Part shown: positions 5,525 through 39,444 of the stretch, piece by piece
Position numbering within the stretch: position 1 is the stretch's first letter
How the letters are laid out: the number at the start of each line of letters is the position of its first letter
NCBI GenBank assembly: GCA_017656185.1
Contig: JACDOK010000020.1
Coordinates: 1 to 39,597, forward strand
Direction of reading: 5' to 3'
DNA from: Peptococcaceae bacterium
GTDB lineage: Bacteria > Bacillota > Desulfotomaculia > Desulfotomaculales > JACDOK01
DNA: 39,597 nt
The notes under the pieces: model-generated
The model's database searches: none
Told to the model about the DNA's origin: nothing
What the model saw: only the letters and a program-made list of their open reading frames with translations
Position numbers and translations under genes: made by a program

Positions 5525-6460
5525 ATGAGCGTACAGCTTGTTAGAGAGCGATGGAATGGTTCGGCACAGGAAATGACTTTGGGCCGCCACCCGCACGCCG
5601 TTAAGGTCGGGGGTGAAAGCACCCTGCCTTTTCTTCACTTTGAAGGATCGATGCCTAATAGACCGGTTTTGGCCCTGGAGGTTACTGACACTTCGCCGCA
5701 GGATTGGCCCGGTGTTCTCAGCGAACCATACCGGGAGGTAATGGGAGATCCGGTGCACTGGGCCATGGCGTGCGAGAAGGAAGGGGCAGACCTGGTGGCC
5801 TTAAAACTTGACAGCTGTCATCCTGAAAAGGAAAATGCCGACCCGGAACAGGCCGCCCGGACTGCTGCAGCGGTGGCGGAAGCAATCAACGTACCTTTGA
5901 TTGTGCTCGGGTGCGGGGATGAGAGCAAGGATGCTGAAGTCCTTCCCATCGCGGCCAAGGCTTTGCAGGGGCACAACTGCCTTTTGGGTACGGTGACCGC
6001 CGATAATTACAAACCTGTTGTGGCAGCGTGCATTGAATATCACCATAATGTTGTTGCTACCAGCCCTTTAGATATCAACCTGGCCAAGCAGCTCAACATT
6101 CTTATCAGCGATATGGACCTGCCGCTGCATCGCATTGCTATGGACCCGTCCATTGGGCCGCTCGGATACGGCATCGAATACGCGTATTCCATCATCGAGC
6201 GCATGCGTATCGGTGCCCTCACCGGAGATATAATGCTGTCGCCTCCGGTTATTTGTATGGTAGGAGAAGAGGCCTGGAAGACAAAAGAGGCCCAGAGTTC
6301 CGACGTCCCTGAATGGGGTGACTGGAAACGGCGGGCTGTGCTTTGGGAAGCGGTTACGGCTTCAGTATTGCTCCAGGCCGGAGGCCACATAATGGTTCTG
6401 CGGCATCCGGAATCTCTAGCGCTTGTCAAGGCACAAATTGACGACCTCATGCGTAAATAG
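5525..6460 (+). CDS. acsD: corrinoid iron-sulfur protein small (beta) subunit
   Basis: Small CFeSP subunit, a TIM barrel that pairs with AcsC and helps bind the corrinoid. The sequence has the family signatures LPFLHFEG, NRPVLALEV, LIVLGCGDE, SPLDINLAKQLNILI, DPSIGPLGYGIEY and VTASVLLQAGGHIMVLRHPE. About 311 residues, the usual length. ATG 5525 gives MSVQLVRER, aligning with Moorella AcsD (MAVQILRDR). In-frame TTG 5516 is closer to the AAGGAG at 5506-5511 and cannot be excluded. It lies 39 bases after acsV and 50 before acsE, in one evident operon. Confidence 0.95.
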   Translation: MSVQLVRERWNGSAQEMTLGRHPHAVKVGGESTLPFLHFEGSMPNRPVLALEVTDTSPQDWPGVLSEPYREVMGDPVHWAMACEKEGADLVALKLDSCHPEKENADPEQAARTAAAVAEAINVPLIVLGCGDESKDAEVLPIAAKALQGHNCLLGTVTADNYKPVVAACIEYHHNVVATSPLDINLAKQLNILISDMDLPLHRIAMDPSIGPLGYGIEYAYSIIERMRIGALTGDIMLSPPVICMVGEEAWKTKEAQSSDVPEWGDWKRRAVLWEAVTASVLLQAGGHIMVLRHPESLALVKAQIDDLMRK

Positions 6461-6507
6461 GTATACTTAAAAGCGAACCGTTTTGGATTAACAGCATGGA
6501 GGTATAA

Positions 6508-23065: not shown

Positions 23066-23198
23066 TAGTAGAGATAATAACTGTCTGGAAAATAATTCAA
23101 CCTTAAGGGACTACCCCGGGGGGGATGCGTAGGATAAATACATTTACGTTTGACATAAATGATTTTTTTCCTTGGAAAACAAAAGGGGGGAAAGGTTT

Positions 23199-24677
23199 AT
23201 GGAACAATTTGATATCTTTCGTGATATTGCGGAACGGACCGGTGGGGACATCTATATCGGTGTAGTGGGGGGCGTCCGGACGGGGAAATCTACTTTCATT
23301 AAGCGCTTTATGGAATTATTCGTGATTCCCAATATTGAAAACGTTTATGACAAAGAGAGAGCACGGGATGAACTACCGCAAAGTGGGTCAGGCAGAACCA
23401 TAATGACCACGGAACCAAAATTTGTGCCCAATGAAGCAGTAGAGGTCTCCATAGGCGAAAGTATTAAGATGAAAATCCGTCTCGTTGACAACGTCGGCTA
23501 CCGCGTGGAGGGAGCCTTGGGTTACGAAGAAGAGGACGGACCCAGGATGGTAATGACCCCCTGGTCAGACGAACCGATGCCGTTTGAAGAAGCCGCGGAA
23601 ATGGGCACCCGGAAAGTAATCGCCGATCATTCAACCATAGGTATTGTTATGACCACCGACGGTACCATTACCGACATTGACCGTGAAAACTATGTAAATG
23701 CAGAAGAACGTGTCATAGAAGAACTAAAACAGCTTAACAAACCTTTTATCGTTATTCTGAATTCTACCCGGCCCCACGCTCTGGAAACGCAGAAACTTGC
23801 GGCTGAACTCCAGGAAAAATACGATGTCCCGGTACTACCATTGGATGTTTCCGAGTTATCACAAGGCGATGTTGTAACATTAATCGAAGAGATACTTTAT
23901 GAATTCCCGGTTACAGAGGTTAAAATTGCGATCCCACGATGGGTTGAAGAACTGGACCGTACGCATTGGTTACGAGAAAAGTTTGAACAGTGTGTCCGGG
24001 ACGCTGTGCGGAACATTCAACGCGTACGGGATATTCGATCCACAACGGACCAGTTAGCCGATTATGATTTTATAGAAGAAGTCGACCTGCAAGAACTGGA
24101 TATGGGAGTCGGGACGGCATCTGTTAATTTAAAAGCGCAACCGGAACTGTTTTATCAAATTGTATCCGAGGAAACCGGATTTAAAGTTGGCGGCGATCAC
24201 GATGTTTTCCGCCTTATGAAACAGCTGGCCGTGGCCAAAAGGGAGTATGACAAACTTGCAACAGCTCTTGAAGAAGTTCGTGAAAGCGGCTACGGTATGG
24301 TAACGCCGCGGCTGGATGAAATGAACCTGTTTGAGCCGGAACTAATCAGGCAGGGGAATCGTTTTGGAGTTAAGTTAAAAGCCAGTGCACCATCCCTCCA
24401 TATTATTAAAGCCGATATTACTACTGAAATCACTCCTATTATCGGCACCGAAAAGCAGTGTGAAGAGCTGGTGCGCTTTATTCTCAATGAGTTTGAAGAA
24501 AATCCCAAGAAAATTTGGGAATCACAAATTTTCGGTAAGTCTCTACACGATTTGGTACGCGAAGGAATTCAAAATAAGCTTCATAGAATGCCTGAAAACG
24601 CTCAAGTCAAACTGCAGGAAACGCTACAGCGTATTGTTAATGATGGCAGCGGGGGACTTATCTGCATTATTATCTAA
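23199..24677 (+). CDS. spoIVA: stage IV sporulation protein A
   Basis: A morphogenetic ATPase that polymerises on the forespore surface and anchors the spore coat. 492 residues, equal to the B. subtilis protein. Walker A GGVRTGKS at 24-31, DNVGYRVEGALGYEE, STIGIVMTTDGT, VILNSTRP and the C-terminus ending in GGLICIII, the membrane-anchoring tail that binds SpoVM. ATG 23199 follows a strong purine-rich site (AAAGGGGGGAAAGG). It is monocistronic: a terminator lies upstream, and a palindrome and a gene-free region lie downstream. It shows that the organism forms endospores. Confidence 0.97.
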   Translation: MEQFDIFRDIAERTGGDIYIGVVGGVRTGKSTFIKRFMELFVIPNIENVYDKERARDELPQSGSGRTIMTTEPKFVPNEAVEVSIGESIKMKIRLVDNVGYRVEGALGYEEEDGPRMVMTPWSDEPMPFEEAAEMGTRKVIADHSTIGIVMTTDGTITDIDRENYVNAEERVIEELKQLNKPFIVILNSTRPHALETQKLAAELQEKYDVPVLPLDVSELSQGDVVTLIEEILYEFPVTEVKIAIPRWVEELDRTHWLREKFEQCVRDAVRNIQRVRDIRSTTDQLADYDFIEEVDLQELDMGVGTASVNLKAQPELFYQIVSEETGFKVGGDHDVFRLMKQLAVAKREYDKLATALEEVRESGYGMVTPRLDEMNLFEPELIRQGNRFGVKLKASAPSLHIIKADITTEITPIIGTEKQCEELVRFILNEFEENPKKIWESQIFGKSLHDLVREGIQNKLHRMPENAQVKLQETLQRIVNDGSGGLICIII

Positions 24678-24702
24678 GATGAGATCGATATCAGATTACA
24701 CA

Positions 24703-24732
24703 AGAAACCCTTCTCAATTGAGAAGGGTTTCT
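24703..24732. terminator. 30-bp perfect palindrome after spoIVA
   Basis: The arms 24703-24717 and 24718-24732 are exact inverse complements (AGAAACCCTTCTCAA and its mirror). It is 26 bases after the spoIVA stop. There is no clear T-run on either side, so it may be a terminator of weak type, an RNA-stabilising hairpin, or the edge of the structured region that follows. Confidence 0.6.
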
Positions 24733-25140
24733 ATGTTAAGAGCCCGTAATGACCTTCACTCCGACCGTTACAAATCTCTGCATAACCTATGATAACCTTT
24801 CGGCTACCGTAGATCATTACAAGACCTGTAACGATCTTTGCTCGACCAAGGCAACTATCTAGGGACCTGCTGGCAGTCTCTCGACCACCAACAACCCCAA
24901 CTTTGTATAAACAAAGTTTCCGACAGCAACCTTGATCTTAGCTCGAACAATAAGCTTCTTTTAGGACCTATAGACAGTCCTTCGGACTGGCTATAAGCCG
25001 GTCAAAAAACTTATTGCTCTTCCCTCCGGCTAATATCGAGCCTTTTGACCCGATATTAGCCTTCGGCCGACTGCTATCGAGCCCATCTTAGACCCGATAG
25101 CAGTCTTGGCTCGGCCATTACGAACCCTTGCTTGATCATA
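24733..25140. ncRNA. candidate structured RNA: multi-hairpin gene-free region
   Basis: About 400 bases with no plausible reading frame but dense pairing. From left to right: a 5-bp stem-loop near 24746-24771; GATC-TTAC/GTAA-GATC (24812-24836 region); an 8-bp stem at 24899-24906/24911-24918; and a three-tier hairpin closed by CAATAAG (24947-24953) and CTTATTG (25010-25016), with an inner CAGTCC-TTC-GGACTG. Two perfect 11-bp hairpins follow, 25028-25038/25051-25061 and 25069-25079/25095-25105. Both of these read ATCG-AGCC-(4 or 7)-GACC-CGAT across the loop. GCTCGACC-like linkers recur at about 24840, 24881, 24941 and 25109. Strand is unknown. Alternatives are a decayed repeat array or a mobile-element remnant. 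I recognise no known RNA family. Confidence 0.35.
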
Positions 25141-25315
25141 GTATAACCACATGCTCTGATAATATTAATAAATTATTTGGTAATTAATGGAACACACTCA
25201 TTCTTTAAAGCGATAAAGAAATTAAAAAATTGTCCTCATGGGTAGTTATTTAGTTATTAACAGATACAAAACTGTACATACTAACAGGTAAATTAGTTCT
25301 TAGGAGGTAATGCAA

Positions 25316-25621
25316 ATGCTTAACAATCTTTCTTCATCACTTAGCGAATACTTCGTACAAGTAGGGAACCGCCTGCCTGATGAGGCCATAAGAGTGCTGA
25401 AGGCTCTTGAGAATCACGGGCGTATGAACAAAGAGGAACTTTCCTTAACATCCCGGGTTAAACGGGCCGTTCTGGACCATGTCATAATGCAGCTTTACGC
25501 TTTAGGATTAGTTGATGTTACCGCTGAAGGGAAAAGCAAAATCTGCAGTATGACCAAACTGGGCGAAGAGTTTATTGAACTAAAGAGCAGTATTAGCGAA
25601 GAAGGTAATCTGGTACAGTAA
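25316..25621 (+). CDS. small winged-helix protein
   Basis: A 101-residue protein with the layout of an archaeal/bacterial winged-helix DNA-binding domain: helices around DEAIRVLKALENHG, the segment MNKEELSLTSRVKRAVLDHVIMQ as a likely helix-turn-helix, a wing near LGLVDVTAEGKSK, then LGEEFIELKSS. It is not assigned to a named family and no target is known. ATG 25316 is 7 bases after TAGGAGGT (25301-25308); ATG 25310 is too close. It lies alone between the structured region and recJ, preceded by 175 bp of AT-rich DNA, and ends at its own hairpin. It could act on the nearby structured region, which is speculation. Confidence 0.65.
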   Translation: MLNNLSSSLSEYFVQVGNRLPDEAIRVLKALENHGRMNKEELSLTSRVKRAVLDHVIMQLYALGLVDVTAEGKSKICSMTKLGEEFIELKSSISEEGNLVQ

Positions 25622-34843: not shown

Positions 34844-35045
34844 AGTCAATGCAAACCCTGCTTTGTCCGTGGCGAACCTTGAAGTTCTGAGCCAACACCA
34901 ACACATAGGGAGCCTGGACTCTGGTTGTGGAATGCAGGCCTTCGGAGAAAGAAGGAAACAAGAAGCAACCAGGAGGGCACCCACCTGTCGAGACAGGGTT
35001 CAAGAAACTTTAGGGCGCCAACGGCACAGTGGGGTTTATCTGTTT
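34844..35045 (+). ncRNA. ssrS: 6S RNA
   Basis: About 200 bases between a good promoter and a strong terminator, directly downstream of aspS, where B. subtilis 6S-1 (bsrA) also lies. The ends pair in the closing stem: AAACCC (34854-34859) with GGGTTT (35032-35037), and TGTCCGT with ACGGCACA just inside. The 3' side has the family pattern ACCTG...CAGGGTTCAAG...GGGCGCCAACGGCA, comparable to E. coli 6S (GGGTTCAAGGGTTACAG). A central CCTTCGGAGAAAGAAGGAAAC segment resembles E. coli CCGAGAAGCCTTAAAAC. 6S mimics an open promoter and holds sigma-A RNA polymerase. The exact ends are estimated. Confidence 0.88.
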
Positions 35046-39321: not shown

Positions 39322-39444
39322 CCTCTTATCTCTCAGAAGAACTTAATCTTCTGCTGGAATTGGCACCTGAGTCACGGCATTAGACCTGCCGCGACCGGTT
39401 GCCGGGTTTCATTGGGCCAGTCCCTCCACCTCTCTTGATAAGAG
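39322..39444 (-). promoter_or_regulatory. SAM-I (S-box) riboswitch aptamer
   Basis: Read on the minus strand: CTCTTATCAAGAGAGGTGGA at the start, then GGGACTGGCCC, AUGAAACCCGGCAACC, a GC-rich hairpin, GGTGCCAATTCC, and closing GATAAGAG. These are the core motifs of the SAM-I class (P1 5'/3' strands pair CTCTTATC with GATAAGAG; kink-turn and pseudoknot strands are present). Bound S-adenosylmethionine should favour the terminator at 39279-39306. Confidence 0.97.

Follow-up and report, generated by a model that had tools for sequence, protein, structure and literature searches.

The window, a stretch of 39,597 nucleotides from a Peptococcaceae bacterium (contig JACDOK010000020.1), carries spoIVA and a small winged-helix gene separated by a gap of 630 bases, and it is inside this gap, on the minus strand, that an RNA gene is found (Table 1). 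The region 24733-25140 can almost certainly be taken as the gene for a conserved, stand-alone noncoding RNA of about 400 nt. The original prediction had delimited the same interval; the RNA does lie inside it, but the promoter on one side and the terminator on the other had been left out. The terminator may also end spoIVA because it is palindromic. The winged-helix gene stays beside spoIVA in several related genomes.

Table 1. Features of the RNA locus and of its surroundings (positions are those of the window; for the shortened members, those of the loci named)
Feature	Position	Strand	Evidence or remark
spoIVA, convergent with the RNA gene	23172-24677	+	TIGR02836, E 2.7e-251
Intrinsic terminator hairpin, palindromic	24702-24732	-	Terminator-like hairpin right after P1 in nearly all copies
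Large structured noncoding RNA, about 390-410 nt	24733-25138	-	z -18.7; 75 distinct homologs, 149 pairs, 107 double-sided
P1 closing stem, 3' strand GGTCATTACGGGCTC	24740-24754	-	99.5% paired
Arm E, two-tier, GAAA apical loop (71/75)	24763-24836	-	98.5% paired
Arm D, two-tier, GNRA (mostly GAGA) apical loop, internal segment of variable length	24844-24937	-	98% paired
Mini-helix M2 under arm D, 5' strand (partner 24840-24842)	24940-24942	-	Pair count on alignment and coordinates
Arm C, two-tier	24945-25019	-	97-98% paired; double-sided change in 27/33
Arm B hairpin	25028-25061	-	98.4% paired; double-sided change in 11/15
Mini-helix M1 under arm B, 5' strand (partner 25021-25023)	25065-25067	-	83.6% paired
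Arm A hairpin	25069-25105	-	98.6% paired; double-sided change in 13/15 pairs
Mini-helix P2, 5' strand (partner 24758-24759)	25109-25110	-	98% of cells paired
P1 closing stem, 5' strand GGGTTCGTAATGGCC	25113-25127	-	99.5% of cells paired
Forespore-type (sigF/sigG-like) promoter AATATTATCAGAGCATGTGGTTATACTA: -35 nATA, 17 nt, -10 GGTTATACTA	25139-25166	-	Logo from 75 copies
Small winged-helix protein gene, between the RNA and recJ	25310-25621	+	Weak PF02002 match
6S RNA	34852-35039	+	RF00013, 104.7 bits
SAM-I riboswitch	39323-39444	-	RF00162, 94.1 bits
Shortened members, mostly one-tier arms	L243 4985-5270; L262 5001-5293; L264 5001-5316		

The minus strand of 24733-25150 folds with -218 kcal/mol (z -18.7), a stability that was reached by none of 100 shuffled sequences, whereas the plus strand reaches -118 kcal/mol (z -5.5), so that the many strong stems described earlier are a large excess over chance. 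The gap in fold energy between the strands arises because many G-U pairs form in the minus-strand RNA only, and the same strand was the more stable one in all of the distant homologs (42/42), with a mean of -208 kcal/mol against -113 kcal/mol for the complement. An RNA on the plus strand, the strand on which the locus had been read, was ruled out by the fold energies and the asymmetry of the wobbles. Regulation in cis, with spoIVA or the winged-helix gene as the target, was also rejected, as the RNA is antiparallel to both genes and its neighbours vary between families.

Conservation and fold of the RNA

Relatives that were 66-79% identical, many of them over the full length, were detected by BLASTN in the majority of 100 genomes belonging to the same order, and iterative nhmmer searches on homologous loci yielded 94 full-length matches (some of the loci overlapping) that were reduced to 75 distinct sequences. 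In the resulting alignment (A1, 505 columns), RNAalifold found 12 helices with 149 pairs. The cells of A1 were paired in 97.8% across these pairs, against only 31-41% in slid controls, and 107 of the 149 pairs underwent double-sided changes (1302 such cells versus 342 in shuffles). In a weighted G-test with average-product correction, the 20 top-ranking column pairs all belonged to the structure, as did 38 of the first 40. The percentage paired is biased in favour of the structure because the latter was derived from A1 itself; this bias is weaker in the slid controls, in the ranking by covariation and in the folds of single sequences. Compensatory base changes among homologs, the criterion for a structured noncoding RNA, are thus present.

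The architecture predicted from the alignment, and shown by covariation, is a six-helix star in which the closing stem P1 and the arms A to E surround a junction with three-fold pseudo-symmetry. This symmetry follows from the mini-helices GC/GC, GCC/GGC and GCU/AGC, which lie under P1, B and D, with none under A, C and E; M1 is the weakest helix, one of its pairs being unpaired in 31 of the 75 sequences. Two covariance models were used, R1 for the 5' 110 nt and R2 for the 3' 101 nt, both with E-values from a short calibration. The middle arm is matched by R2 as well, in many cases with 40-60 bits, and this shows the arms to be related modules. The two perfect hairpins of the original prediction exist exactly as claimed and correspond to arms B and A, its hairpin closed by CAATAAG/CTTATTG is arm C, and the repeated GCTCGACC-like linkers that it listed correspond to the GGUCGAGC-type segments joining the arms. 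The letters AGCC...GACC, which had been taken for a loop, form a stem in the RNA (GGGUC/GGCUC) that includes G-U wobbles. Because these letters are held in conserved stems, the proposed pseudoknot with GGCT at 25109-25112 is left unsupported, the GGCT bases being located in the mini-helix at the foot of P1.

Nine rods of about 15 bp can be distinguished, each with wobbles at bp 3, 12 and 14, where the pairs are counted from the junction in P1, A, B and the lower tiers of C, D and E, and from the apical loop in the upper tiers of C, D and E; arm E fits this register only with one extra pair left open in the consensus. Of the 149 pairs, 20 are wobbles in more than 85% of the sequences, and every one of them occupies one of the 27 sites at bp 3, 12 and 14 (p 3e-19, with the sites defined post hoc). 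An independent check on these sites is provided by the distant copies that were folded singly, in which the wobble fraction was 0.61, 0.60 and 0.58 at bp 3, 12 and 14 versus 0.10-0.31 elsewhere. Pair 13, which lies between two of the wobbles, is a U-A pair in 100, 100 and 96% for the lower tiers of arms C, D and E, respectively, and G-C or C-G elsewhere. One turn of an A-form helix separates bp 3 from bp 14, so that the wobbles are lined up on a single face of every rod.

A scan of Rfam 15 by cmscan, one of the checks proposed beforehand, gave no match over the RNA, whether the window, the segment 24650-25320 (up to E 10) or 20 homologous loci from distant genomes were scanned, and of the known classes (OLE, ROOL, GOLLD, HEARO, raiA, 6S, RNase P, SRP, tmRNA and introns) none was found there at its gathering cut-off. 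No description of the RNA was encountered in open-access papers, and the genera that carry it are not mentioned in the main text of comparative RNA-discovery papers; supplements and subscription journals were outside the scope of both searches. The family, absent from Rfam and apparently unreported, would therefore be new, the main threat to this statement being a homology to Bvs196/S357 (see below), for which there is no sequence comparison. Within the papers searched, the central claim of an undescribed RNA under selection for its structure has held up, supported by massive compensatory change, and the suggested BLASTN search and an analysis of covariation gave the homologs and the double-sided changes described above. 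The 6S RNA, one of which is encoded in the same window, is also a bacterial regulatory RNA, but is unrelated to the present one. The raiA or ModT RNA is another conserved, structured RNA of Bacillota that is tied to sporulation and growth (PMC11706538). It differs in that the present locus matches no Rfam family. The raiA-motif RNA is also smaller.

Distribution, promoter and the link to sporulation

R1 matched in 74 of the 100 order relatives and R2 in 87 of the 113 genomes of the class, and across the phylum the 5' domain (R1) was recognised in 153/398 genomes at E <= 0.1, most matches being far below 1e-9. At distant loci the R1 and R2 matches were nearly always on the same strand and about 400 nt apart. 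Short members of about 290-316 nt (L243, L262 and L264) were also found, and these, with their mostly one-tier arms, possibly represent the ancestral six-rod form. A scan with a DNA pattern matched 47 contigs, the carriers including Pelotomaculum, Desulfotomaculum, Desulfotruncus, Desulfofundulus, Desulforudis, Desulfoscipio, Desulfocucumis, Carboxydocella and Dethiobacter. SASP-bearing relatives of families f11 and f14 (g14, g24) had no RNA by either R1 or R2, which reflects either loss or strong divergence.

A genome contains one to about five copies, at times in tandem, and the source genome of the window contains one. Tandem copies a few hundred to a few thousand bases apart were seen at L036 (5995-6894), L182 and L212. 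Neighbouring genes are common only within families and differ between them (neighbours were clustered and not all were named), and clustering of the flanking genes revealed no neighbour conserved across families; the genes next to the RNA appear to be spoIVA, ileS, lspA, upp, thiC or spoVT, depending on the family, and all but spoIVA and spoVT were named by reading the sequences. In a tree, the copies of families f16 and f4 group across species and would thus be old paralogs with mostly vertical inheritance. With its own promoter and terminator and no fixed neighbour, the RNA meets the description of a stand-alone gene, as far as sequence evidence alone can tell, and it does not meet that of a mobile element, for which a linked transposase and patchy inheritance would be required, since there is no conserved neighbour and the paralog groups are vertical. 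A mobile or viral origin was ruled out, the RNA having been found in none of the plasmids and viral contigs searched and its paralogs being old. The inverted repeats and the multiple, partly tandem copies could still be thought of as an element acting at the level of DNA (a cruciform, a recombination or terminator array) or as a mobile repeat that is not an RNA at all, an idea that is hardly credible and already contradicted by the strand asymmetry, as the pairing depends on the G-U wobbles of one strand; the fixed promoter and terminator sites, the vertical paralog groups and the lack of matches in the viral contigs and plasmids searched also speak against it.

In nearly all copies a -10 element, GGnCATAATA or variants of it, is located about ten bases upstream of the RNA, and about 17 bases upstream of this element there is a near-invariant ATA (A 95%, T 97% and A 83% among the 43 copies whose -10 is strict). 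The consensus of the forespore factors sigF and sigG consists of a GYATA-like -35, a spacer of about 17 nt and a -10 of GGnnAnAnTA or CATnnTA. SASP genes of the same genomes served as an internal control and have promoters of the same layout, e.g., AGACATAATCAATTGCAGCAGGGCCATAATAAGA. A relaxed form of the pattern occurred in 57/75 copies from the order and 26/42 distant copies, compared with 2-3% of shuffles; for the SASP controls the figures were 20/29 versus 50/2900. When a promoter matrix was trained on SASP genes only (19 SASP promoters, with 1508 control windows), 52 of the 75 order copies scored above the 99th percentile of the controls, and the 95th was exceeded by 31 of 41 distant copies. 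The window's own promoter, with a score of 8.3, lies between the 95th and the 99th percentile of the control windows and would therefore be a good one, not among the best. The architecture shared with SASP promoters of the same genomes satisfies what is asked of a promoter of the sigF/sigG regulon, and the RNA is very probably forespore-specific, where the promoter rests on sequence comparison and the expression is inferred, without transcript data.

The distribution of the RNA leads in the same direction, a link to sporulation that was absent from the original prediction. In the order sample, SASP (PF00269) are encoded in 98/100 genomes, and the two genomes without them (G048 and G056) lack the RNA by both models. 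In the phylum sample, SASP occur in 345/398 genomes, all 153 RNA-positive genomes among them, and none of the 53 SASP-negative genomes has the RNA (Fisher p 7e-13, uncorrected for kinship). There are 192 SASP-bearing genomes without a match (some perhaps missed by the filters), which means that sporulation in general can do without the RNA. At L052 and L054 (around 6000-6470), the RNA is situated 57-76 nt after an alpha/beta SASP gene on the same strand, and in family f16 it is often directly downstream of spoVT. SASP gene products serve as an amino-acid reserve. The RNA, which is multi-copy with a forespore-type promoter as SASP genes are, might by analogy store nucleotides or phosphate in bulk for the spore, without any specific role that depends on structure; this is very improbable, because the compensatory changes and the invariant wobbles and loops imply selection on the exact structure.

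A possible structural RNA of the endospore

According to the mechanism proposed here, an RNA polymerase of the sigF/sigG type would transcribe the RNA in the forespore and stop at the RNA's own terminator, and the wobble faces would then dock against other rods by minor-groove packing, within or between molecules, or alternatively bind repeated copies of one forespore protein. Packed into the spore, the resulting compact and abundant RNA or RNP could support dormancy, resistance or outgrowth. This role as a multivalent scaffold, like the docking, is inferred and tentative, at best approaching an even chance, and the whole chain, comprising the conserved RNA, its transcription in the forespore and the scaffold role, is likewise held with somewhat less than even confidence. 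Neither a protein partner nor a conserved neighbouring gene gives a clue to the mechanism. The RNA could still be catalytic or act by antisense pairing, although little conserved sequence is free, which makes antisense regulation less likely.

The nearest published thing to the present RNA is Bvs196/S357, a 294-nt sigF/sigG-dependent forespore RNA of Bacillus, the loss of which lowers the heat and UV resistance of the spores (PMC9147052). Both have forespore sigF/sigG control (inferred for the present RNA), an independent gene with its own terminator and a conserved secondary structure, and the size of Bvs196 is near that of the shortest present members. Bvs196, in contrast, comes from a single locus between hinT and ecsA, has been reported from Bacillus, is proposed to act in an antisense mode, and folds with -82 kcal/mol over 294 nt versus -218 over 418 nt for the present RNA. 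That the latter, in the manner of Bvs196 (called S357 in B. subtilis), is also a forespore regulator, which pairs with or sequesters mRNAs or a regulator protein, is suggested by the promoter class and the inferred compartment, by the spore-resistance phenotypes of Bvs196, itself a structured RNA (PMC9147052), and by the versions of about 290-316 nt within the present family. It is nonetheless rather unlikely, given that nearly all nucleotides are in helices and the conserved parts that remain free, short purine linkers and tetraloops, offer a poor antisense surface; antisense pairing would also hardly explain the wobble register.

OLE, ROOL and GOLLD, too, are large, stand-alone and highly structured bacterial RNAs the biochemical role of which is unknown (PMC12286853). 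The present RNA differs from them in size and topology, is not matched by their covariance models and goes with sporulation genes. OLE is tied to membrane proteins, and ROOL and GOLLD largely to phages. The size of the present RNA, its conserved GNRA loops, its internal loops and its repeated, symmetric architecture would be compatible with a ribozyme or with an ornate RNA that forms an RNA-only oligomer (a cage or a bundle), as ROOL, GOLLD and OLE assemble without protein (PMC12286853), but with no Rfam match to these three and no recognisable catalytic core, this explanation looks unlikely.

The scaffold reading has a more specific form, a new class of endospore RNA in which a six-helix RNA of three-fold pseudo-symmetry, built of repeated 15-bp rods with a fixed G-U register, made in the forespore and often multi-copy like SASP, would form a structural part of the spore core, either by self-assembly or by organising a spore protein. 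This remains a possibility that the evidence permits more than it favours. Only few large structured RNAs are known from bacteria, and with every new class new biology has come to light; to our knowledge, no large structural RNA is known in endospore formation. The RNA described here is found across the phylum, and its promoter and distribution tie it to endospore formation. The regular register of its wobbles suggests a new principle by which RNA helices are packed or decorated, and with this RNA, endospores may prove to have an RNA component that had not been seen before.
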